DNA of 64,000 bases from Celeribacter persicus. Lineage in GTDB: Bacteria; Pseudomonadota; Alphaproteobacteria; Rhodobacterales; Rhodobacteraceae. Shown here piece after piece: positions 7,910-52,920 of the stretch. The position numbers were made by a program, and so were the translations under genes. The notes beneath the pieces were generated by a model that was not told where the DNA came from, made no database searches, and saw only the letters and a list, made by a program, of their open reading frames with translations. The first letter of the stretch is position 1. Each line of letters begins with the position of its first letter. The stretch spans positions 124,001-188,000 of the forward strand of contig NZ_QAOH01000007.1 of assembly GCF_003050785.1 (NCBI RefSeq), read 5' to 3'.

Positions 7910-8509
7910 ATGACCCAAAACCTGCGCAAGATTCAGACCCAGGGCGTGCATCACATCACCATCACCGGTGCCGACCGGCAGTCGACTATCGACTTCTGGG
8001 AGGGTGTCCTCGGCATGCCTTTCGTCTTCGATCAGCCCAATCTGGACCGGCCCGAAGAGGGTCACCTCTATTTCGATCCCGGTGACGGACGGCTGATCAC
8101 GGTCTTCACCAATGAGGAGCGGAAGCCGGGCCGTAACCGCATCGACCAGGGACCGGGATCGCTGCATCATCTGGCGTTCAACGTTTCGAAAGTCACCTTC
8201 GATCAGATCATCGAGCGACTGGACGCGCGCGGCGTGAAACACTCGGACGTCAAGGATCGCGGCTTTATGGATTCGATCTATTTCCGCGAACCCAACGGCA
8301 TGTTGATTGAGCTGGCGAGTTACCGGTTCGAGCCTCCCTCTGGCTATAGCCACACGGACGTGCTGCACCGCGCGCATCTCATCCGGGTTGCGGCGGGAGA
8401 CGATCATATCGACAAGAAACATCTGGCCGATGCCATCGAGAAACTGGTGGGCGAGAGCACGAACACATTGTCATTCGACCGCAGCGCGAAAAATCCGTTC
8501 TCCAAATGA
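7910..8509 (+). CDS. VOC-superfamily (glyoxalase/dioxygenase-fold) protein
   Basis: A 199-residue protein with the vicinal-oxygen-chelate fold. Likely metal ligands are His in GVHHITITG (about residue 15), His in LHHLAFNV, and Glu in NGMLIELASYRF, the usual H-H-E set. The family includes glyoxalase I, extradiol dioxygenases and fosfomycin-type enzymes, and the substrate cannot be named from sequence. The C-terminal ~50 residues (from HTDVLHRAHLIR) extend past the core domain. ATG 7910 is chosen for AAGGAG at 7897-7902. Confidence 0.85.
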   Translation: MTQNLRKIQTQGVHHITITGADRQSTIDFWEGVLGMPFVFDQPNLDRPEEGHLYFDPGDGRLITVFTNEERKPGRNRIDQGPGSLHHLAFNVSKVTFDQIIERLDARGVKHSDVKDRGFMDSIYFREPNGMLIELASYRFEPPSGYSHTDVLHRAHLIRVAAGDDHIDKKHLADAIEKLVGESTNTLSFDRSAKNPFSK

Positions 8510-8511
8510 AA

Positions 8512-8540
8512 ACGGCGCGGGAAACGCCCGCGCCGTCTTG
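8512..8540 (+). terminator. Terminator between convergent VOC and DUF1330 genes
   Basis: A perfect 10-base-pair stem, ACGGCGCGGG with CCCGCGCCGT, with loop AAACG. Its T-tail on the plus strand is short (CTTGG). Because it lies between convergent genes it may act in both directions. Confidence 0.75.
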
Positions 8541-8557
8541 GTCTCATGTGAGAGAGT

Positions 8558-8845
8558 TCACTCTTCGATTTCGATCACCACGATATCGCGCTCGGAGGCC
8601 CCATTGGCGTGGCTCAGCGCCTCCTGATATTCCGGGCTGTTGTAGCAGGCGACGGCGGCCTCCACGCTGTCGAAACGGGTCACTACGTTGCGCGGACGGT
8701 CGTTGCCTTCGAGCTGAACATAGCGACCGCCACGAGCAAGAAACTTGCCGCCGTGCTTGGCGATCGCGGAACCTGCAAGTTTGGCATAACGGCCATAGGC
8801 CTCTTCATCGGTGACCTTGATATTGGCGATCCAGAGTGCGGGCAT
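8558..8845 (-). CDS. DUF1330 family protein
   Basis: A 95-residue protein of the dimeric alpha/beta-barrel superfamily. The phrases WIANIKVTDEEAYGRYAK, GGKFLARGG, NVVTRFDSVEAAVACYNSPE and YQEA are typical of DUF1330. No enzymatic role is established for the family. It starts 3 bases after the alaS stop codon and is almost certainly translated from the alaS transcript. Confidence 0.88.
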   Translation of the reverse strand: MPALWIANIKVTDEEAYGRYAKLAGSAIAKHGGKFLARGGRYVQLEGNDRPRNVVTRFDSVEAAVACYNSPEYQEALSHANGASERDIVVIEIEE

Positions 8846-8848
8846 GTC

Positions 8849-11500
8849 TTATCCTTTCAACAGGGTTTCTGCGGCTGCAATCGCGGCATCAGAACCGGAA
8901 AAATCCTTGCCCCCGCCCTGCGCCATATCGGGACGACCACCGCCGCCCTTGCCGCCCACGGCAGGCACTGCCGCCTTGAGCACATCCACGGCGGAAATCT
9001 TGTCGGTCAGGTCATCGGTCACACCACAGGCGACAGCCACCTTGCCGTCCTCTTCCGCAATCAGAAGGATCACGCCGGATCCAAGGTTGCTTTTATGCGC
9101 GTCGATCAGGGAACGCAGGTCCTTGCCGGAGACGCCTTGCAGCGCCTGAGCGAGGAATTTGACGCCGCCGATCTCCTTGGCCTCGACCCCACCTTTGGCC
9201 CCACCGCCAAGCGCGATCTGTTGCTTGAGGTTCGCGACCTCCTGCTCCAGTTTCTTTCGCTCCTCGGCCAATGCCTTGACGCGATCCACGACCTCGGCGA
9301 CCGGCGCTTTCAACACATTGGCAACCTCAAACGCGCGATGCGCCTCAGTTTCAAGATGCGTAATCGCCGCCTGCCCGGTCAGCGCCTCGATCCGGCGTAC
9401 ACCAGCCGAGGAAGCGCTGTCCCCCAGCACCACGCAAAGCCCGATATCGCCCGTGCGTTTGACATGGGTGCCGCCGCACAATTCGATGGAATAGGTCTGC
9501 CCGTCCGTGCCCTTGCCGGTGTCGGCACGGCCCATGGAGACAACGCGGACCTCATCGCCGTATTTCTCGCCGAAAAGCGCCTGTGCGCCAATGGCACGGG
9601 CGTCGTCCGGGGTCATGATCCGGGTTTCGACCGCCGTGTTCTGACGGATAAACGCGTTCACGTCACGCTCGACCTTGGCGATTTCCTCGGCGCTCAGCCC
9701 CTTGGCATGCGAGAAGTCGAAGCGCAGACGATCCGGCGCATTCAAAGACCCGCGCTGCGCGACGTGATCGCCCAAAGTCTCGCGCAGGGCCTCGTGCAGG
9801 AGGTGCGTGGCGGAGTGGTTGGCGCGAATGGCGGCACGACGGGCATGATCGACCTCAAGCGCAGCCGGGGCGCCTACCCTGATCTCGCCGGTTTCGACGG
9901 TGGCAAAATGGATGAAGACACCCGCAACCTTTTTCGTGTCGGTGACTTTGGCGATGGATTTCTCCACGCGGATCACACCGGTGTCGCCGACTTGGCCACC
10001 GCTTTCGCCATAGAACGGCGTCTGGTTCACCACGATCTGTACGGTATCGCCCGCCTTCGCGCTCTCGACGCGTGCACCGTCCTTCACGATGGCGACGATC
10101 TCGCCCTCGGCCTTTTCGGTGTCATAGCCCAGAAATTCCGTGGTGCCCTTGTCTTCCGCGATGTCGTACCAGACGGTCGCATCCGCCGTTTCACCTGACC
10201 CGGCCCAGGCGGCACGCGCCTTGGCTTTCTGTTCGGCCATGGCGGCATCGAACCCGTCGGTGTCGACTTCCACGCCCTTCTCACGCAACGCGTCCTGCGT
10301 CAGATCGAGCGGGAAACCGTAGGTGTCGTAAAGCTTGAACGCCGCCTCGCCCGGAAGTTTCTCGCCCTCGGGCAGGTCCACAAGTTCCTCTTCGAGAAGC
10401 TTGAGACCACGATCCAGCGTCTGGATGAAACGGGTTTCTTCGAGTTTCAGCGTTTCCTCAATCATCGCCTGACCGGTGCGCAGCTCCGGATAAGCTTCAC
10501 CCATCTGGCGCACCAGTTCGGGCACCAGCTTGTGCATGATCGGGTCTTTCGCACCCAGAAGGTGCGCGTGACGCATGGCGCGGCGCATGATCCGGCGCAG
10601 CACATAACCCCGGCCCTCGTTCGAGGGCATCACACCATCCGCGATCAGGAAGGAGGTGGAGCGCAGGTGGTCGGCAATCACCCGGTGATGCACGTTCTTG
10701 TCGCCATAAGGATCGACCGAAGTGGCGTTGGCCGAAGCCTCGATCAGCGACCGCATCAGGTCGGTATCGTAATTGTCATGCGAGCCTTGCAGCAGCGCTG
10801 CGATGCGCTCAAGCCCCATGCCGGTGTCGATGCTCTGCATCTCCAGATCGACCATGGACCCGTCGGCGAAGCGCTCGTTCTGCATGAACACGATGTTCCA
10901 GATCTCGATGAAACGATCGCCGTCCTCTTCCGGCGAGCCCGGAGGGCCGCCCCAGATGTGATCGCCATGGTCGTAGAAAATCTCGGTGCAGGGACCGCAA
11001 GGCCCGGTGTCGCCCATCTGCCAGAAATTGTCGGAGGTCGCGATACGGATGATCCGGTCTTCCGGCACGCCGACTTTCTTCCAAATCTCAAAGGCTTCGT
11101 CATCCGTGTGATAGACGGTCGTGTAGAGCCGGTCCTTCGGGATGTCGAAATCTTTGGTGATCAGTTCCCAGGCAAAGGGGATCGCTTCCGGCTTGAAGTA
11201 ATCCCCGAAGGAGAAGTTGCCGAGCATCTCGAAAAACGTGTGGTGGCGCGCCGTATAGCCCACATTGTCCAGATCGTTGTGCTTGCCGCCCGCGCGCACG
11301 CATTTCTGCGCCGTGGTGGCGCGCACGTAATCGCGTTTTTCCACCCCGGTGAAGCAGTTCTTGAACTGCACCATACCGGAGTTGGTGAACATGAGCGTCG
11401 GATCGTTGCGTGGCACGAGCGGTGAGCTTGGCACGACGGTGTGACCGTTGCGTTCGAAATAGCTGAGGAAGGTGGAGCGGATATCGTTCACGCTGGGCAT
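8849..11500 (-). CDS. alaS: Alanyl-tRNA synthetase
   Basis: Attaches alanine to tRNA-Ala and edits mischarged tRNA. The 883-residue length fits the family. Domains in order are the class II aminoacylation domain (starts [13 protein letters not shown]), the tRNA-recognition region, the editing domain with zinc motif [11 protein letters not shown] and CGGTH, and the C-Ala domain ending [16 protein letters not shown], which carries the DHHA1-type glycine-rich motif. It lies 140 bases downstream of recA with a terminator between, followed directly by the DUF1330 gene. Confidence 0.97.
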
Positions 11501-37781: not shown

Positions 37782-38690
37782 TCATTTGAGGACCTGATTC
37801 TTGACCCGCCAGTCCGGCTGACCGAAGCCTTCCGGCCACGGGTAAACTTCCGGGTAGTTGAAGTAGACGACACCGACCAGCGCCGGGTAATCGGCGTTTT
37901 CCGCTCGCACGGAAGTCTTCCACCCCTCGACGTAACCCGCCTTGCCGACATAGCCGAGCTCGGCCACAACGACCGGTTTGCCAAAGGCCTGCGCCCGTTT
38001 GTAACGGGGTGCGAAGATTTCGTCATAGGTCCGGTCATGACCGTATTTCGCCTGATCCCAGGCTTGCAGACCGAAGACCGACAGGCCGACCAGATCGGCA
38101 TAGTCGTCGCCCGGATAGTATTGCGCCATTTTCTCATCGCCCAGAGGCGACCACATCAGGTTGATGTTCGGCGCATCTTCCTTGCACAGATCGGTCATCC
38201 GGCGATAGGCGGCAATGTAATCGTCCGGGTCCCAGCCCGCCCAGATAAACTGACCGCTCTCATCATCCATCTCATGCATGAACCGCAGGGTCACCGGGCT
38301 TTTCAGCGTGCCCAGTACCTCGCAAACCGCGTGCATGTTGCCGTCATAGGTGCCATTGAAAATCCCCTCGCGCAGGTAGCGCGCGGTGTTGCGTTCGCTG
38401 CGCGACCACGTCCAAGGTTCCAGCGTCACCAGAAGCGCACGCTGACGTTCGAGCGCATAGGCATCGGCATCGTTCAACGATGGAAGATACACGTCCTCCC
38501 ACGGCAGGAACAAATGCTCGACCGTCACAGCCCCGTCAGCGGAAAAATCCCCATCCGGGTCATAAACCCCGAACGGCACCTGACCCGGCGGCGATTGTGC
38601 AAATCCCATGCTCAAGAGTCCCGACAGAACCCCTATCCCCAGACCGGCGCCCAGCGCCCTCATCATCCGTTTTGTCGACATATTCAACAT
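37782..38690 (-). CDS. GH26-like exported glycoside hydrolase
   Basis: A 302-residue protein with signal peptide (ALGAGLGIGVLSGLLSMGFA, then Q). The GH26 pair is visible: acid/base Glu140 in RFMHEMDD and nucleophile Glu244 in VVAELGYVG, 104 residues apart as expected. GH26 enzymes cleave beta-mannans or mixed-linkage beta-glucans. The gene follows a cellulose-synthase-like glycosyltransferase by 12 bases, so it probably trims or releases the polymer being made, as do hydrolases of other synthase operons. Confidence 0.82.
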   Translation of the reverse strand: MLNMSTKRMMRALGAGLGIGVLSGLLSMGFAQSPPGQVPFGVYDPDGDFSADGAVTVEHLFLPWEDVYLPSLNDADAYALERQRALLVTLEPWTWSRSERNTARYLREGIFNGTYDGNMHAVCEVLGTLKSPVTLRFMHEMDDESGQFIWAGWDPDDYIAAYRRMTDLCKEDAPNINLMWSPLGDEKMAQYYPGDDYADLVGLSVFGLQAWDQAKYGHDRTYDEIFAPRYKRAQAFGKPVVVAELGYVGKAGYVEGWKTSVRAENADYPALVGVVYFNYPEVYPWPEGFGQPDWRVKNQVLK

Positions 38691-38702: not shown

Positions 38703-40559
38703 TCAGGGCGCTTCGGCCCCAAACCATTCCGGTGCGAATTCCAGATGCACATCCCCCGGCTGGCCCTGCCCCGCACCGGCGACCACGTACTCGACTCTCA
38801 TCACTTGCAGAGGCACGAGTCCATAAGACAGAGCAAGGAGACCCATCTGTCCCCTCAGGATAACAGAATTGGCGAAAAATGCCATGATCATTATCAAAAC
38901 AGCACTTTGAAGCACGAGTTTTGGCGTGAAATTCCGCAATTTGATGCGGTTTTCCCGAATGTGGTGAATGATCGCCACGGCCAGCAGAACAACATAGACC
39001 ACAGCGTTCATCAGCGTCAGAAGATAGAACCCCGGCGCCACGACAAGATGGTCGCGCAGCATCACCGGCAGGATCGCCCCCAAGGCGAGGACCGCATAGA
39101 CCAGAACGATCCGGTTCGGCAAAGTCGCATGCGCCACGTGTCCCTTGGGCGTGATGCGGAAGTCGACGAAATGTCCCGAAAGCCGGTCACGCACGGCCAT
39201 GGCCACCCCCCAGAGCACCCAGGGCCATTGCAGCGCGACGAAAAGGATTTTCTCCCAGGAGAGAATCTTCGCATCCACCGGTCGCAAAAGCCCGTCACGT
39301 TTCAACCCGCGCACGATCAACAGCGGAATGAGACCTAATGGGAAACTATGTGCTATAAAGGACGGATATGTGACATTGGCATAGGTGAAATCGAACAACA
39401 CCGCCAGAACCGGCGCGACATAGGCCATCGCCATGGCCAATGCGAAGAACACGTACCAAAGCTGACAGAGAAGAAAGAGCGCCTTGAGCCGCATCGGCAG
39501 TTTCGGAAGGTAATCGGGCGTGTGGCGCAGCAGCAGCGAAACGAGCGAACGCGACCACTGAAATTCCTGCGTCACCAGATCGGGCAGCGTCGCCGGACCG
39601 TCGCCCAGCGCGAAGGCATCAATGGCATGCACACCGCGCCAACCCGCCGCCGAGATCAGCATGGTGGTGGAATGATCCTCCGCCAACTCCGGCCCGAGAC
39701 CTCCCGCCTGTTTGAGCGCCTTGGTGCGCACCGCGTAATGCGAACCGATGCACATGGGCGTCAGGAGCCGGGTGTAGCCCGCCTGAAAGATACCATGGAA
39801 CGCCGCCTCGACATAAAGCCGGGTGCGCGCAGCCCAGTGGCCCCTGGCATTGGCGCCACAAATCGAGGGCGCGGAGACATAGCCCACCTCCGGATCGGCG
39901 AAGGGACGCACCATCTCGCGCAAGTATCCCGGCCCCGGTACATGATCGGAGTCGAGCTGCGAGACGATGTCATAGAGGCGATAGCCCCATGTATCGTAAA
40001 AATAGGCCAGATTGCCCTCTTTGCAGCGAGTCCGGCGCGGCCATTCCTTTTGGTGATAGGCCTCAAGCTCCTTGCGTGAGGAAATATGCACCCCATGGGC
40101 CGCACACCACTCGGTCACCTCCGGCGTCGGGTCCTCATCGGCCAACCATGTATCATGGGGATAATCCTGTGCCAGCATCGCCTCAAGCGTCGGGCGGATC
40201 ACCTCGAAAGGCTCTGAAGGGGTCTTGGTCACGATCATCGCAACCCTGTACTGTCCCAGCTCGGGATCGGGCGCGGCGGAGCGATGAGCCGCAAGGAAGA
40301 TCACCATGAAATAGGCCTGCATGCTCCAGACCCAGATCAGCCCGAGGGTGATCAGCCCATAGCGCACCGCCCCACCGACATGAGACGGCTCGAACCACCA
40401 GCTCCAGAACCAGAGCGAGGCGAGAAACCACAGCCCCGCAAGAAAGCCGTACCACAGCCTGCGTCTGCGTGAAAACAGCGGGGTCAGCATCGGGCGCGGC
40501 GCGAGAGCCGGGTGTCGGGACCTGCGATGCTCCGCCATGGGGGCGGCGGGTCTGCTCAT
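38703..40559 (-). CDS. Cellulose-synthase-like processive glycosyltransferase (GT2)
   Basis: A 618-residue inner-membrane enzyme. Two N-terminal membrane segments (about 30-95) precede a GT2 domain with SQLDSDHV (DxD), GPELAEDHST (TED-type base) and TQEFQWSRSL (the QxxRW-type motif), which define processive synthases such as BcsA. At least five membrane segments follow. It has no PilZ domain. The start at 40559 overlaps the galE stop (ATGA). The product may be a mixed-linkage glucan, a mannan or another beta-glycan. The neighbours (galE, UDP-glucuronate decarboxylase, GH26) indicate an exopolysaccharide. Confidence 0.87.
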   Translation of the reverse strand: MSRPAAPMAEHRRSRHPALAPRPMLTPLFSRRRRLWYGFLAGLWFLASLWFWSWWFEPSHVGGAVRYGLITLGLIWVWSMQAYFMVIFLAAHRSAAPDPELGQYRVAMIVTKTPSEPFEVIRPTLEAMLAQDYPHDTWLADEDPTPEVTEWCAAHGVHISSRKELEAYHQKEWPRRTRCKEGNLAYFYDTWGYRLYDIVSQLDSDHVPGPGYLREMVRPFADPEVGYVSAPSICGANARGHWAARTRLYVEAAFHGIFQAGYTRLLTPMCIGSHYAVRTKALKQAGGLGPELAEDHSTTMLISAAGWRGVHAIDAFALGDGPATLPDLVTQEFQWSRSLVSLLLRHTPDYLPKLPMRLKALFLLCQLWYVFFALAMAMAYVAPVLAVLFDFTYANVTYPSFIAHSFPLGLIPLLIVRGLKRDGLLRPVDAKILSWEKILFVALQWPWVLWGVAMAVRDRLSGHFVDFRITPKGHVAHATLPNRIVLVYAVLALGAILPVMLRDHLVVAPGFYLLTLMNAVVYVVLLAVAIIHHIRENRIKLRNFTPKLVLQSAVLIMIMAFFANSVILRGQMGLLALSYGLVPLQVMRVEYVVAGAGQGQPGDVHLEFAPEWFGAEAP

Positions 40560-41566
40560 CCCTGGGCGACCTTCGGCGCCTCCATGAACCATGGCGCGGC
40601 ATGGCCCACGATCTCGTCTATATTGGTCCACCGGGCTTCGAACCCCAGCACCTCGCGCGCATGGCCCGGATTGGCCACCAGTTCCGGCGGATCGCCTGCC
40701 CGGCGCGGGCTATTTTGATGTGGCACCGCATGGCCGGTCACCCGCTCCACGGCATCCAGGATTTCCTGCACGGAAGTGCCTGTACCGGTTCCGAGGTTGA
40801 GCTTTAGCGGCCCTGCCCCACCCCGCAGCGCATCGAGCGCCAGCACATGAGCGCGGGCCAGATCGCTGACATGGATGTAATCCCGCACGCAAGTTCCGTC
40901 CGGCGTCGGGTAATCCGTGCCAAAGACCTGAAGCGGCGCCCCTGTGCCTTGCGCGGCCATCAGCGCGAGCGGGATCAAATGGGTTTCCGGATCGTGGCGT
41001 TCGGAAAGCTCGAACTCCGGATCGGAGCCCGCCGCGTTGAAATAGCGCAAGGCGGCATAATTCAGCCCCCAGGCACTGGCGGCATCCTCCATCATCCATT
41101 CGCAGATCAGTTTCGAGCGCCCATAAGGGTTGATCGGCGCCTGTGCCATGGTCTCGTCGATCGGCACCCGATCCGGCACGCCATAGGTGGCACAGGACGA
41201 CGAGAAAACCAGCGTCTTCACGCCCTCCCGCTGCATCGCCCCCAGAAGCGCGATCATCCCGCCGACATTGTTGTCGTAATACATCTGCGGTTCCTGCACG
41301 CTTTCGCCGACATAGGCGAAGGCCGCGAAATGGATCACCGCGTCGATGCGCTCCTCTTTCAACACCTGCGCCAGACGATCCCCGTCGCGCATGTCACCCT
41401 TTACCAAAGGGCCCCAACGCACCGCATCGGCATGCCCGCGCGAGAGATTGTCGTAGACCACCGGCACCATCCCCGCCCGGCTCAGCGCCTTGCAACAATG
41501 CGATCCGATATAACCCGCGCCACCGGTGACGAGCACGCGCGCGGCTTTGGCCGGAAGATGTGTCAT
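40556..41566 (-). CDS. galE: UDP-glucose 4-epimerase
   Basis: Interconverts UDP-glucose and UDP-galactose with bound NAD+. The 336-residue cytosolic SDR-family enzyme has the Rossmann motif [16 protein letters not shown], catalytic Ser/Thr in [13 protein letters not shown], and the Tyr-x-x-x-Lys in PYGRSK. The order and length fit GalE. It overlaps the synthase gene downstream and the decarboxylase gene upstream by 4 bases each, so the three are translated from one mRNA. Confidence 0.92.
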
Positions 41567-42618
41567 GCCGCACCTCCTTCGACCATGCCGGTGGCGGGCC
41601 GTACCTGCGACAGCTCAAGTTCCTTGCTGAAATAGGCCACCGTCGGCACCAGCCCGACGCGCAATGTCACTTTCGGCGCCCAGTTCAGCAGGCCTTTCGC
41701 ACGGGTAATGTCAGGGCGACGTTGCCGCGGGTCGTCTTTCGGAAGATCGCAATAGACCGAACCGCCATGGGTCGGGATCATCTTCTGCACCAGATCGGCC
41801 AGCTCGTTCATGGTGAACTCGCCCGGATTGCCAAGGTTGACCGGCATCGCGCCGCAGGTCTCGCATTCCATCAGCGCCATCAGCCCGTCGAGCATATCGT
41901 CGACATAGCAAAACGATCGCGTCTGCTCGCCGGTGCCATAAATGGTCATCGGTTCGCCTTTCAGCGCCTGTACGATGAAATTGGAGATCACGCGCCCGTC
42001 CTCCGGGTCCATCCGCGGCCCGTAGGTGTTGAAGATCCGCGCCACACGCACATCCACCCCGCGAGTTTCATGCATATCGTGGAACAGGGTCTCGGCGGCA
42101 CGCTTGCCTTCGTCATAGCAGGACCGCGGTCCCATGGTGTTCACCAGCCCGCGATAATCTTCGTTCTGTGGCGAAACATCCGGGTCGCCATAGACCTCGG
42201 AGGTCGAGGATTGCAGCACCCGCGCACCTTTTCTCGCTGCCAGTTCCAGCAGGTTCAGCGCCCCCATGACGGAGGTCTGGAAAGTGTGAACCGGATCTTT
42301 CTGATATTTCGGCGGCGAGGCCGGGCAGGCCAGATTGTAAATCCGGTCTACCGGTCCCTAGATGCTGAACGGTTCGACGATGTCATGCAGGAAGAACCGG
42401 AAATCCGGCTCCTGCATCAGCGCGCCGATATTGCTCAACCGCCCGGTTTCGAGATTGTCGACACAGATCACCCGATCCCCCTGCGCCAACAGTCGCCGAC
42501 ACAGGTTGGAACCGATAAACCCGGCACCGCCTGCGACGATGACAACTCTTTGCGAGGACCGATTTTCACTGGTTGCAAGACTGAATTGCGGATCAAGCCG
42601 CTTCACGTTGGAGCCCAT
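41563..42618 (-). pseudogene. UDP-glucuronate decarboxylase gene interrupted by an in-frame TAG
   Basis: A single reading frame of 351 codons encodes a UDP-glucuronate decarboxylase-like SDR (UDP-xylose synthase): Rossmann motif VAGGAGFIGSNLCRRLLAQG, the family phrase [32 protein letters not shown], and catalytic YDEGKR. Codon 87 (42358-42360) is TAG, after DIVEPFSI and before GPVDRIYN, with both sides in the same frame and fully conserved. Without readthrough only an 86-residue fragment would be made, or a 234-residue product from ATG 42267 lacking the NAD-binding N-terminus. It could be a recent nonsense mutation, a base-calling error or a suppressed codon. Downstream galE begins in the last bases of this gene. 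Confidence 0.85.
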
Positions 42619-42879
42619 CTCCCCCTCCTGTCACCCTGATCCCCATAAAGCCCCCGCAACAGAGAGATCAGAGCCGTGTATGTTTAACATTAATATTTTA
42701 CATTATAGCCCTAAAATGGACGTTGATATGTCGCAATATAACCATAATTTGAAATATATCTTTTTAGTCAATACACCGACATGCTGCAAAAATCATGCTG
42801 CACTGCATCAGGTTTCCGGCCTGTTTCAGTCTTGAAAGACGCTGGAAATCTGCCCTGTTCCGATCCTCCAAAGCGCTGG

Positions 42880-47383: not shown

Positions 47384-48220
47384 TTACTCTGCGACCATGA
47401 CGAAATCGAAAGGCGAGCGCCATTCGGTCTCGGCTTTGACATGTTCGAACGGCGCAACCAGTGTTTCCTTGACGCCGAAAACGCTATCATCGTTCAGATA
47501 GCGGTCATCGCCCACGAAAGTATGCGTGACGATGGTCCTGAACCCCGGTGCCGTAACCATGAAATGCATATGCGCCGGACGGTAAGGATGCCGTCCGAGC
47601 TGGCCCAGCATCTTGCCCACCGGCCCGTCATCGGGGATCGGATAGCTCACCGGTTTGATACCGACAAAGCTGTAGGCCCCGTCCGCCTCCGTGATGAACC
47701 GGCCCCGGTTGTTGAACTTCGGCTGGATGTCGGGCTGCTGCACGTCATAGAAGCCTTCGGCATTGTCGGACCACACGTCCACGCAGGCCCCTTTGATCGG
47801 CTCACCGTGAATGTCGATGACGCGACCGGTGAAGAGGCAGCTCTCGCCCTTGCCGTCCAGGCAAATATTGTCTCCCATCTTGCGGATCGGCGCATTGGCG
47901 ACGTGGAAGGGGCCGAACACCGTGTTCTCGGTCGCCCCCGCCGGACGGCGATTGTTGATCGCATCGACCAGCATGGAAAAGCCCAGCACATCGGACAGAA
48001 GGATGAATTCCTGCCGCTCCGGGCTACAGATCTGGCCGGTCTGGGTCAGGAAGTCGATGCCGAAATCCCATTCCTCCTGGGTCAGTTCGACCTCCTTGGC
48101 GAAGGCGTGCAAGTGCTTGACCAGCGCCCCCATCACGGTTTTCAGACGTGGGTCGATATCGTCCCCCATGCGGGCGTTAACGGTCTCGACGGAGCCTTCC
48201 TCGGTAAAATAATCGGTCAT
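47384..48220 (-). CDS. Intradiol ring-cleavage dioxygenase, probably hydroxyquinol 1,2-dioxygenase
   Basis: A 278-residue iron(III) enzyme that opens hydroxyquinol to maleylacetate. The ligands are visible: Tyr158 (EGFYDVQQ), Tyr193 (PVSYPIPDDGP), His217 and His219 (RPAHMHF). The helical N-terminal dimerisation domain (about 1-100) and length fit the hydroxyquinol/catechol subfamily. The presence of maleylacetate reductase in the same operon favours hydroxyquinol over catechol. It is cytosolic. Confidence 0.88.
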   Translation of the reverse strand: MTDYFTEEGSVETVNARMGDDIDPRLKTVMGALVKHLHAFAKEVELTQEEWDFGIDFLTQTGQICSPERQEFILLSDVLGFSMLVDAINNRRPAGATENTVFGPFHVANAPIRKMGDNICLDGKGESCLFTGRVIDIHGEPIKGACVDVWSDNAEGFYDVQQPDIQPKFNNRGRFITEADGAYSFVGIKPVSYPIPDDGPVGKMLGQLGRHPYRPAHMHFMVTAPGFRTIVTHTFVGDDRYLNDDSVFGVKETLVAPFEHVKAETEWRSPFDFVMVAE

Positions 48221-48248
48221 GGGTTTCCCCTTTCTGTTGTCTGGAATG

Positions 48249-49292
48249 TCAGTTGCCGGAACGCTGCGATGGCCTGTGTTGCAGGGAACGGTGCCGCAGC
48301 GGCAGAAGTTCGATCCCCGTTTTTTCGGTGAACATCCCCCAAAGCCCCTTGCGCGCGAACAGCATGATGACGATGCCGATCAGGCCGAGGACGATCAGAT
48401 AGACCGTGCCGTAATCCGCGAGCACGCGTTGCAGGATGTAGAAGACGAGCACTCCCACGACCGGCCCCGGCAGCGTGCCGATGCCACCGATCACGGTGAT
48501 GAAGATGACGAAGGCGGTCCAGTCCACGACGGAAAACGCCGCATCCGGGCTGACCCGCGTGATCTGGATGAAAAGAAGCGCGCCGCACAGCCCGGTGCCG
48601 AAGGCGGTGAGCACGAAGACCAGCGCCTTGAGCCGCAGGGGATCGACGCCGACGGAACGCGCCGCCTCGACATTGTCGCGGATCGCCTGAAGCCCAAGCC
48701 CCATACGCGAGCGCAGGAACAGGTAGCCGACCAGAAGCGTCACCACGGCCAGCGTAAGCGCCAGCCAATAAGTCAGCGCATCCGACGCCGCCGAGGAGGA
48801 CACACCCAAGAGTTCCTTGATCTGCGCCACACCGATCATCTCCTTGGTGGTGCCCTTGGGCAGGGATGTGCCCGTGCCTCCCCCCAGAGCCTTCCACTGC
48901 GCCATGGAGAGACGGACGATTTCGGCGGAGACCCATGTACCGATGGCGAAATAGGCCCCGTTCAGGCGAAAGGTGAAAAACGCAATCGGGAGCGACAGGA
49001 GCATGGCCGCGACGCCTCCCAGAAGGATCGCAGGCAATGGGTCCCAGCCCCAGAGGATCACGCCACCGAACATCGCGTAGGCCCCGATGCCGACGAAAGC
49101 CTGTTGCCCCACCGAGACCAGCCCCGCGAAGCCCGCGAGCATGTTCCAGTTGAGCGCGAGCACCAGAAGGGTGAGCACCATGAAGAGGTCCTGCACCATG
49201 GCGCGCGAGCCGATCACCGGCACGAGCGCGAGCACCAGGACAGCCAGGACCGCGATCACGCGTGAGAGGGTGGATTTGGAAGAGTTGGTCAT
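48249..49292 (-). CDS. Branched-chain-type ABC importer permease (LivM family)
   Basis: A 347-residue inner-membrane protein with about nine segments. NWNMLAGFAGLVSVGQQAFVG and the coupling-loop area RSRMGLGLQAIRDNVEAARS followed by GVDPLRLK are hallmark LivM features. It forms a heterodimer with the LivH-type permease upstream. Given its operon partners, the transporter likely imports an aromatic acid (for example a hydroxybenzoate or resorcylate) and not an amino acid. Confidence 0.92.
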   Translation of the reverse strand: MTNSSKSTLSRVIAVLAVLVLALVPVIGSRAMVQDLFMVLTLLVLALNWNMLAGFAGLVSVGQQAFVGIGAYAMFGGVILWGWDPLPAILLGGVAAMLLSLPIAFFTFRLNGAYFAIGTWVSAEIVRLSMAQWKALGGGTGTSLPKGTTKEMIGVAQIKELLGVSSSAASDALTYWLALTLAVVTLLVGYLFLRSRMGLGLQAIRDNVEAARSVGVDPLRLKALVFVLTAFGTGLCGALLFIQITRVSPDAAFSVVDWTAFVIFITVIGGIGTLPGPVVGVLVFYILQRVLADYGTVYLIVLGLIGIVIMLFARKGLWGMFTEKTGIELLPLRHRSLQHRPSQRSGN

Positions 49293-49301
49293 CTTGAGCC
49301 C

Positions 49302-50165
49302 TCAGTCATTGGCGCGCGGGAACAACCCGCGGGGACGGATCAGCAGGACGAGCACGAAGGCGATATGGCCCGCGAGGATTTGCCATTCGGGATTGACGGC
49401 GGCCCCCAAAGCCTGCGCCACACCGATCAGGATGCCTCCCGCGAGCGTGCCCCAGAGCGAACCCAGCCCGCCGATGATCACCGCCTCGAAGGCGTAGATC
49501 AGACGTGCGGGACCGATCGAGGGATCGAAATTCGCGCGGATGCCGAGGTACAGCGCGGCAATGGTGGCGACGACCATGGCGATGCCGGTGGCAATGGCGA
49601 AAACATTGCGCGGTCGGATGCCCATGAGCCCCGCTGTCACCGCATCGTCCGAGGTGGCGCGAAAGGCGCGGCCCAGTTTGGTGCGGTAAAACAACTGGTT
49701 GAGGGCAAAGATCACCGCAACGGCGGAGATCAGCGTCAGGAGAGGCATCACCCCCACGGTGATGGGCCCGAGCGGCAGGGAAGCCGCTTCGATGGGACCG
49801 GCGGAGAGTTTCTGACTGTCTGCGGAAAAGCCTTCCAGAAGGCCGTTCTGGATCACCACGGACAGCCCGAAGGTAACGAGAAGCGGCGGCAGGATGTCGT
49901 CGCCCAACACCCGGTTCAAAACATAGGTCTGAAGCGCCCATCCGACGGCGAACATCACTGGAGCGGCGATCAGCACCGCCACGAAAGGCGACAGGCCTAA
50001 AAGGTTCACGACCGTCAGGATCAGAAACGCCGCCAGAACGATGAGATCGCCATGTGCCAGATTCACCAGCCGCATGATCCCGAACACAAGGCTCAACCCC
50101 GCCGCGAACAGCGCGTAAAGCCCGCCCAAAAGGATGCCCTGAACAATGGTATCGACCCAGATCAT
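49302..50165 (-). CDS. Branched-chain-type ABC importer permease (LivH family)
   Basis: A 287-residue inner-membrane subunit with about eight segments. LVFGIMRLVNLAHGDLIVLA at the start and TKLGRAFRATSDDAVTAGLM followed by GIRPRNVF are the LivH signatures. ATG 50165 overlaps the stop of the ATPase gene (ATGA) and is preferred over the frame-open region further upstream. The LivM gene follows after 9 bases. Confidence 0.92.
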   Translation of the reverse strand: MIWVDTIVQGILLGGLYALFAAGLSLVFGIMRLVNLAHGDLIVLAAFLILTVVNLLGLSPFVAVLIAAPVMFAVGWALQTYVLNRVLGDDILPPLLVTFGLSVVIQNGLLEGFSADSQKLSAGPIEAASLPLGPITVGVMPLLTLISAVAVIFALNQLFYRTKLGRAFRATSDDAVTAGLMGIRPRNVFAIATGIAMVVATIAALYLGIRANFDPSIGPARLIYAFEAVIIGGLGSLWGTLAGGILIGVAQALGAAVNPEWQILAGHIAFVLVLLIRPRGLFPRAND

Positions 50166-50875
50166 GCGCTCACTCCGAAATAGGCGTCGTGGATCGCATC
50201 GCGCGACAACTCTTCTGGCGCACCGCTCAGGGTGATCCGGCCTTCCATCATGCAACAGACATGATCGGCGACCTTGAGCGCCTGCCCGATGTCCTGTTCC
50301 ACCACGATGACCGAGGCCCCGCTTTCACGGATACGCGGGAAGGAGGCGTAGATGTCGCGGATGATCACCGGGGCGAGGCCCAGAGAGATTTCATCGCACA
50401 AAAGCACATCCGGGTTCGACATCAGCGCCCGCCCGATGGCGACCATCTGCTGCTGTCCGCCCGACAGGGCTGTGCCTGGATTGTGACGCCGCTCCTTGAG
50501 GATCGGGAAGAGATCGTAAATCGCCTCCAGCGTCCAATAGCCATTGCCGGTGCGGCTGTGCGCGCCGATCAGGATGTTTTCCTCAACCGTCAGCGAGGGA
50601 AACAACCGTCGCCCCTCCGGCACCATGGAAATGCCGACCTCCAGCACCTCGGGCGCCGAAAGCGCGCCGATGGGCCGGTCATTCAGCAGAATCGCCTCGG
50701 CGGGGCTCGGCAGAATGCCGGTGATCGCCCGCATCAGCGTCGACTTGCCCGCACCGTTGGCCCCGATGATCGCCAGCGCCTGCCCGCGTTGGAGCGTCAG
50801 ATCGACGCCGAACAACGCCTGAAAATCGCCATAGAAGGCAGTCAGATTTCGGATGGAAAGCACCGTGTCGGTCAT
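50162..50875 (-). CDS. Branched-chain-type ABC importer ATPase (LivF family)
   Basis: A 237-residue cytoplasmic ATPase. It has Walker A GANGAGKST, signature LSGGQQQMVAIGRALMSNP, Walker B VLLCDEISLGLAP, and the LivF phrase VEVGISMVPEGRRLFP in the form EVGISMVPEGRR. It overlaps LivG by 4 bases upstream and LivH by 4 bases downstream. Confidence 0.94.
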   Translation of the reverse strand: MTDTVLSIRNLTAFYGDFQALFGVDLTLQRGQALAIIGANGAGKSTLMRAITGILPSPAEAILLNDRPIGALSAPEVLEVGISMVPEGRRLFPSLTVEENILIGAHSRTGNGYWTLEAIYDLFPILKERRHNPGTALSGGQQQMVAIGRALMSNPDVLLCDEISLGLAPVIIRDIYASFPRIRESGASVIVVEQDIGQALKVADHVCCMMEGRITLSGAPEELSRDAIHDAYFGVSA

Positions 50876-51591
50876 ACTTCGATCCCCAGATAGATTTCCT
50901 TCACCTCCGGCGAGGCCATGACCTCATCCGGTTCGCCGATCATCAGCATCTTGCCGAAGTTCAACACCATGAGCCGTTCGACCACGGAGGTGAGCGCATG
51001 AAGCACATGTTCGATCCAGATGATCGCCGTGCCCTCTGCATGGATGGATTTGATCGTGTCGATCAGCGCGCCGCATTCCGCTTCGGTCAGCCCGCCCGCG
51101 ATTTCGTCGAGCAGGATGAGCTTGGGCGAGGTCGCCATGGCGCGCGCCAGTTCAAGCCGTTTACGCTGCAACAAAGACAGCCCGCCGGAGGTGGCATCCG
51201 CCACGCCCGCAAGCCCGGTGCGGTCGAGGATATCCATGCAGAATTCCCCCGCATGGTGGCCATGATGCCCGCCGCCGAAATTCGCCGCGACCAAAAGGTT
51301 TTCGAACACACTCAGATGGGTGAAGGGCTGCGGGATCTGGAACGACCGCCCGATCCCCGCCGCCACCCGGCTCATCGGCGGTTTGCGTGTGACATCCACG
51401 CCGTCGAACAGAACACGCCCCTCATCGGGCGCGATATTGCCGGTGATCAGGTTGAACAACGTGGATTTCCCCGCGCCGTTCGGCCCGATGATGCCCAAAG
51501 CCTCGCCCGGCGCGACCTCGAAAGAGACCGCGTCCGTAACCTTGAGCGCACCGAAGGATTTCGACACATGGTCGAGTGTGAGAAGGGACAT
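50872..51591 (-). CDS. Branched-chain-type ABC importer ATPase (LivG family)
   Basis: A 239-residue cytoplasmic ATPase with Walker A GPNGAGKST, the LivG phrase AAGIGRSFQIPQPFTHLSVF, a variant signature (SGGLSLLQRKRLELARAMA), and Walker B LILLDEIAGGLT. Together with LivF it energises the importer. Confidence 0.94.
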   Translation of the reverse strand: MSLLTLDHVSKSFGALKVTDAVSFEVAPGEALGIIGPNGAGKSTLFNLITGNIAPDEGRVLFDGVDVTRKPPMSRVAAGIGRSFQIPQPFTHLSVFENLLVAANFGGGHHGHHAGEFCMDILDRTGLAGVADATSGGLSLLQRKRLELARAMATSPKLILLDEIAGGLTEAECGALIDTIKSIHAEGTAIIWIEHVLHALTSVVERLMVLNFGKMLMIGEPDEVMASPEVKEIYLGIEV

Positions 51592-51654
51592 GTTTTGCCT
51601 CTAATGGGTTGGCTGGAGGCCGAGGCCACCAGCCGGTTCCGTCTCGGATTGGGA

Positions 51655-52920
51655 TCAACTCAACGCTTCGAGCGTACCGGTCAGCGCGATCTCGGGCGCA
51701 AGCCCGTTCTCCACGATCACCAGATCGAAACTTCCATCGTCCTGCATCCGCCACTGGCCGCCCACCAGCGGGGTTTTCGACACATTGGCCTGCGCAAACG
51801 GCGGCACATTGTCCCGGCCCCACTGGATCTTGCCCACGGCACTGTCGATATTCGTCGACCCGATCAATTCGGCCATCTCATCCCCGTCGGTCGGATCGTC
51901 CGCACGCTTGATCGCATCCATTGCCACTTCGAAAAGACTGTGAATAAAGCCGAGCGGCTGGGTCCATTGACGCGCCGCATACTCCTCGAACTCGCCCGCC
52001 AGATCGGCGCAGCTCTGCCCGGTCAGCGACGAGGTGAACGGGTGCATCGGCGACCACCACACCTCGCAGGTCAGGTTATGTGCGAGTTCACCCAAGGCCG
52101 CGACGCTTTCCGGGAACAAAAGCGCCTTGGCGACCGACACCATTTTTGGGGTGAACCCCTGCTGTTTCGCCTGGGTCCAGAAGGTGGTGAAATCCGGCGG
52201 GATCGGGATGCCGGTCAGAATCTGCACGTCATTCTGTTTGAACGCGTTGATCTGGGCGGAGAAATCGTCCGTCAGGTTCTGATACCGCCCCGTGTCTGTG
52301 AGCTTGTACCCCGCTTCGGCGAGCGCAGGCGGCATCCCCACGTCCGAGGCCCAGGCATTGCCATCCCCGTCATTGGGCCAGAGCGCACCGACGGATTTGT
52401 TGCTCTCGATCATGTCCCACATGTTCATGAAGACCTGAACATTGTCCTCAAGCCCCCAGAAGAAATGATGCACGTAGTCAAAAGCCTGCCAACTCGCCGG
52501 ATCGGCAGGATTGCCCTGTTGCCCGATGAACCACGGCTGCCAGGGCGCGACGGTGGAGATCACCGGCACCTCTTCGGCCTCCGCAATGGTACAGACGGGG
52601 TTCGTGGTTTCCGGCGTCGAGGCGACGCAGATCAGATTGACCTCGTCACGCACGATCAGTTCGCGGGCGACCTCGGCGGCGCGGTTCGGGTTCGACTGGC
52701 TGTCCTTGACGATCACCTCGACATCGACGCCCTGTGCTTTGGCGGTCTTGACAAAACTCTCGATGACATAGGCGTCGGCGGCTGCGAAACCGCTCAAGGG
52801 TCCCGTCTGCGGGCTGACATAGCCGATCTTGATGGAACTGCCCTTGGCGAGCGCCGGCATCGCCAGCGCGCTCGCGGCCGTGGCCGCCCCGGTTTTCAGA
52901 AATGTGCGTCGTGAAAGCAT
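51655..52920 (-). CDS. Periplasmic binding protein of the aromatic-operon importer
   Basis: A 421-residue protein. The N-terminus, MLSRRTFLKTGAATAASALA, is a twin-arginine (Tat) signal. The mature part (SIKIGYVSPQTGPLSGFAAA) is of the type 1 periplasmic fold used by Liv/Urt systems. Similar binding proteins with aromatic gene neighbours bind benzoates and related acids. The gene is located between the maleylacetate reductase gene and the ATPase/permease genes. Confidence 0.9.
   Translation of the reverse strand: MLSRRTFLKTGAATAASALAMPALAKGSSIKIGYVSPQTGPLSGFAAADAYVIESFVKTAKAQGVDVEVIVKDSQSNPNRAAEVARELIVRDEVNLICVASTPETTNPVCTIAEAEEVPVISTVAPWQPWFIGQQGNPADPASWQAFDYVHHFFWGLEDNVQVFMNMWDMIESNKSVGALWPNDGDGNAWASDVGMPPALAEAGYKLTDTGRYQNLTDDFSAQINAFKQNDVQILTGIPIPPDFTTFWTQAKQQGFTPKMVSVAKALLFPESVAALGELAHNLTCEVWWSPMHPFTSSLTGQSCADLAGEFEEYAARQWTQPLGFIHSLFEVAMDAIKRADDPTDGDEMAELIGSTNIDSAVGKIQWGRDNVPPFAQANVSKTPLVGGQWRMQDDGSFDLVIVENGLAPEIALTGTLEALS

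Follow-up and report, generated by a model that had tools for sequence, protein, structure and literature searches.

The uxs gene for UDP-glucuronate decarboxylase, first in a four-gene polysaccharide operon of the marine bacterium Celeribacter persicus, has most likely become a pseudogene through a recent single-base nonsense mutation, a reading to which we give a probability of roughly 0.7. The gene lies in the window analyzed here, a 64,000-nucleotide stretch on contig 7 of a 4.30-Mb Celeribacter draft genome. A single minus-strand frame runs from an ATG through 86 codons to a TAG (42360-42358), then through a further 264 codons to a TGA (41565-41563). Only 5 nucleotides separate the AGGAGG of the ribosome-binding site from the ATG, and both elements are conserved in the sister genome (G004). 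The family phrase GGAGFIGSN precedes the TAG, and a second conserved phrase of 13 residues follows it in the same frame. The coordinates of all features are collected in the table below.

Both sides of the stop belong to one enzyme. The piece before the TAG matches positions 1-38 of the Pfam profile PF01370 and the piece after it positions 94-227; chance does not account for such a complementary pair of enzyme halves sharing a frame. When the read-through frame, with W put at the stop, was searched with phmmer, it matched the solved structures 2b69, 4gll, 4m55 and 4lk3 at E values of about 1e-102 to 1e-103. Residues 23-336 align with human UDP-glucuronate decarboxylase (UXS1, 2b69; E 1.9e-103), so that the homology to solved Uxs is full-length, and the two proteins share what we take to be the NAD-binding and YxxxK motifs. 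Unlike the human enzyme, the window gene is cut at codon 87 and has no continuous frame for the whole protein. The uxs frame is thus a UDP-glucuronate decarboxylase homolog, with a predicted activity of converting UDP-GlcA to UDP-Xyl. The sequence-only reading had placed a TAG at codon 87 of a 351-codon frame with family sequence on both sides; frame translation and the PF01370 and 2b69 matches bear this out, and the position it gave, 42358-42360, is exact. A 359-amino acid open frame on the plus strand (41560-42639) lies antisense across the whole gene; we take it for a chance frame, long antisense frames being frequent in the window.

Table. Features of the interrupted uxs gene and its operon (window coordinates)
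Feature	Position	Strand	Basis or remark
Interrupted uxs frame (UDP-glucuronate decarboxylase; 351 codons and a stop, break at codon 87)	41563..42618	-	colinear with the intact gene of sister genome G004
In-frame TAG, codon 87 of uxs	42358..42360	-	sense codon or gap in 105/105 rows from other places
uxs N piece, 86 codons, GGAGFIG NAD-binding motif inside	42361..42618	-	ORF list, translation, profile match
Longest open frame past the uxs TAG, starting at the next in-frame ATG (234 aa)	41563..42267	-	YxxxK (YDEGK) present, NAD-binding motif absent
AGGAGG ribosome-binding site of uxs	42624..42629	-	also in sister genome G004
uxe-like UDP-sugar 4-epimerase	40556..41566	-	TIGR01179 names GalE, above cut-off; name uxe from gene order
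Membrane GT2 glycosyltransferase (polysaccharide synthase, apsS-like), probably starting ~21 codons further downstream	38703..40631	-	
GH26-type glycosyl hydrolase, last gene of operon	37782..38690	-	

In the sister genome the protein is uninterrupted (89% identity over 355 columns), with lysine at codon 87. In an alignment of relatives, 109 rows cover this codon; four of these are the window's own place and 105 come from others (several being one place fetched twice), with a sense codon in 104 and a gap in one. The comparison with close relatives that the sequence-only reading proposed thus shows a sense codon at the place of 42358-42360. Glutamate, serine, alanine, arginine and other residues occur elsewhere in the column, which is a non-conserved site, and in the more distant rows the alignment is uncertain owing to a two-residue gap beside it. 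Within the genus, the window's type of uxs (at least 65% identity) is present in 9 of 20 genomes, and only the window's copy has a stop. The other stop-flagged rows of this search are distant paralogs (26-29% identity); in the one checked, the stop precedes the start of its gene. A family-wide search of 295 genomes at a cut-off of E 1e-100 returned uxs-like matches at 76 places in 68 genomes; six of the places were flagged with a stop, including the window's. Among the other five, stops fall at query positions 340, 341 and 346, and two alignments end at 334 and 336 without a stop, which puts their flagged stop at the C-terminal end. The collections searched yielded no further genome of the species, so the sighting of the TAG is a single one.

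To judge the age of the lesion we turned to substitution patterns. Relative to the sister gene, dN/dS for uxs is 0.101 over 350 codons (0.149 in the 86-codon N piece, 0.089 in the 264-codon C piece), against 0.056, 0.099 and 0.114 for its three operon mates and 0.019-0.145 for all 15 neighboring genes compared. When changes were polarized with 11 outgroup sequences, 8 amino acid changes fell on the window side and 14 on the sister side, with 12 ambiguous, and synonymous changes numbered 43 and 29, respectively. At columns invariant in the outgroups there were no departures in the window gene and one in the sister. The gene was thus under purifying selection until very recently. Since it shows no sign of relaxed selection, either the gene has been released from selection for hardly any time or the living cell has no stop there; the TAG is very recent or a base error.

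The three genes downstream of uxs, encoding the epimerase, the GT2 glycosyltransferase and the GH26 hydrolase, are colinear with those of the sister genome and have no internal stops, in agreement with the earlier remark that the downstream polysaccharide genes are intact. The ATG of the epimerase gene overlaps the TGA of uxs. Of 17 loci compared, 15 share the order uxs-uxe-GT2-GH26, including all eight other Celeribacter loci; the exceptions are Thioclava, without GT2 and GH26 matches, and Marimonas, without GH26 and with only part of GT2. We rejected a wider decay of the operon after examining two candidate sites, GH26 residue 231 and GT2 residue 188, at which the window departs from columns invariant in 12 compared relatives. 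The GH26 column varies in a wider set (Sinorhizobium meliloti has another residue), and the window keeps the glutamates of HEMDD and VAELGY, presumably the GH26 catalytic pair; within HEMDD, variation falls only on either side of the E. Many interrupted genes in the window were likewise rejected. Of 34 sister ORFs compared, 18 reached 80% identity or more. In the window, 16 of the 18 are free of in-frame stops, and in the remaining two the stops are confined to upstream extensions, the genes themselves being intact. The rest fell below 80% and included antisense frames, and uxs itself was displaced from the list by its overlapping antisense frame. Elsewhere in the window, genes at 47384-52920 resemble those of a branched-chain amino acid ABC transporter, with an aromatic-degradation set nearby (plasmid records).

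The main rival to a nonsense mutation, and in our view an unlikely one, is that the TAG is a base error in the draft assembly and uxs is intact. The assembly is in 94 contigs, and uxs is the sole interrupted gene among the window genes compared with the sister. A base-call error would likewise leave a gene without decay, and the single sighting of the stop, in one genome, suits an error as well; the operon bears this one nonsense change in one gene and no sign of further decay. Against an error, only 91 of the 3150 possible single-base changes of uxs give a stop. Finished short-read drafts seldom carry single-base substitution errors, and newly arisen nonsense pseudogenes are frequent in bacteria. 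The gene has the marks of such a pseudogene, namely one in-frame stop, conserved sequence throughout the rest and an intact ortholog in the sister genome, and we can name no point in which it differs. Of the three readings first offered for the TAG, then, recent loss of the gene is favored, a read error keeps a minor share, and suppression finds no support.

Suppression or readthrough, by which full-length enzyme would still be made, we consider very improbable. A variable codon 87 column means that an inserted residue could be tolerated, and among 16 window genes listed, 14 end in TGA, two in TAA and none in TAG. TAG may therefore be a rare stop in this genome, and its leaky reading might cost little, although this is not evidence for leakiness. 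Opposed to readthrough are the sense codon in the sister gene and the tRNA set, which was searched for an amber suppressor. The Rfam tRNA model (RF00005) found 45 tRNA genes in the genome, for each of which ARAGORN gave an anticodon, and ARAGORN added a tRNATyr; all 46 are canonical and none has the anticodon CTA. The tRNATyr gene exists in one full copy, as judged by a search with its own sequence, and has the normal GTA anticodon, so an amber suppressor was rejected on the basis of the 46 tRNA genes found. Three further matches were weak and sub-threshold, and two of the three gave no tRNA by ARAGORN. Slighter still is the chance that leaky termination puts an amino acid at the TAG, in a genome where this stop is rare, with termination efficiency setting the levels of decarboxylase and polysaccharide synthesis. 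Least credible of all is a two-part enzyme, assembled from uxs pieces that are expressed separately. A 234-amino acid open frame does follow the stop; its ATG, codon 118 and the first in-frame start, lies 31 codons on, inside conserved sequence, and has no recognizable ribosome-binding site before it. The next start, GTG at codon 134, has only a weak purine stretch, and products from either start would be without the NAD-binding motif, making a restart that gives an enzyme unlikely. Restart within a split gene was therefore rejected; none of the 105 rows of other origin has the gene split either.

The tRNATyr gene is itself of some methodological interest. Located on contig 8 (L199:1196-1279) beside rlmB, it was missed by the whole-genome RF00005 search. 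The same search also missed the tRNATyr in the complete genome G018, where the gene again lies beside rlmB with a GTA anticodon, and none was evident in G004. Given that ARAGORN found it in both G018 and the window's own genome, the missing tRNATyr is a blind spot of the RF00005 search, and a pitfall when tRNA sets are counted in that way.

What the nonsense mutation would cost the cell depends on the product of the operon. According to published accounts, the APS operon of S. meliloti has the order uxs1-uxe-apsS-apsH1-apsE-apsH2 (PMC7902896) and directs an arabinose-containing polysaccharide induced by c-di-GMP through CuxR (PMC7902896, PMC9495663). The window has adjacent genes for the decarboxylase, epimerase, GT2 synthase and GH26 hydrolase in the same order, which two S. 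meliloti plasmid records share, and the S. meliloti copies are 58-59%, 59-60%, 51-52% and 48-49% identical to these four, respectively. Two differences stand out. The uxs gene is broken in the window, and the DUF995 genes (probably apsH1 and apsH2) that flank the GH26 gene in S. meliloti RU11/001 have no counterpart there: the GT2 gene ends at 38703 and the GH26 gene starts at 38690, leaving no room for a gene between them, and none follows GH26 either. From this gene order, we take the operon to make an APS-like polymer, in which Uxs would give UDP-xylose and Uxe would turn it into UDP-arabinose. What the broken uxs puts at risk is thus probably the supply of UDP-arabinose, derived from UDP-xylose, for the main polymer.

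A second uxs lies on contig 4 (G000:C4:53818-54762), intact, 322 amino acids long and 60% identical to the broken gene; a second type of uxs was also found in four of the 20 genomes of the genus search (G003, G004 and G016, besides the window's own G000). Its surroundings (L168:2933-11849) hold a GT90 glycosyltransferase, a UDP-glucose dehydrogenase and another epimerase, as well as two large ORFs of 1064 and 413 amino acids with no Pfam match at E 1e-5. With a second, intact uxs in the genome, the cell need not have lost UDP-xylose, and the contig 4 enzyme may still supply it to the broken operon. Although loss of uxs is favored, the proposal that the exopolysaccharide had lost its UDP-xylose branch has to be revised: the epimerase gene that comes next, in an order like that of an arabinose-polysaccharide operon, makes UDP-arabinose the probable precursor concerned. 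If uxs has been lost by the nonsense mutation, the 86-residue product would hold only the start of the NAD-binding fold and would be inactive. Early termination would also be expected to weaken translation of uxe, whose start codon overlaps the uxs TGA, with possible polar effects on the operon. The second uxs could make up part of the loss by supplying UDP-xylose.

The same operon has been broken independently in at least one other genus. In Marimonas lutisalis (NZ_SKCI01000001.1, L068:8001-10273; the same sequence as G089 and L227), uxs has a frameshift near codon 265, the GT2 gene is matched only over its first 140 residues, and there is no GH26 match within the stretch 8001-10273 examined.

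Annotators should flag the window's uxs as a pseudogene or a possible base error and avoid entering two short proteins in its place. The case is an ordinary one, a freshly broken gene or a single wrong base and not a new reading of the genetic code, and the operon type is already known; its significance beyond the species itself is slight. If the stop is real, the strain represents a natural loss of function in an APS-type surface-polysaccharide operon; together with the broken copy in M. lutisalis, it suggests that this operon is lost now and then in the family.
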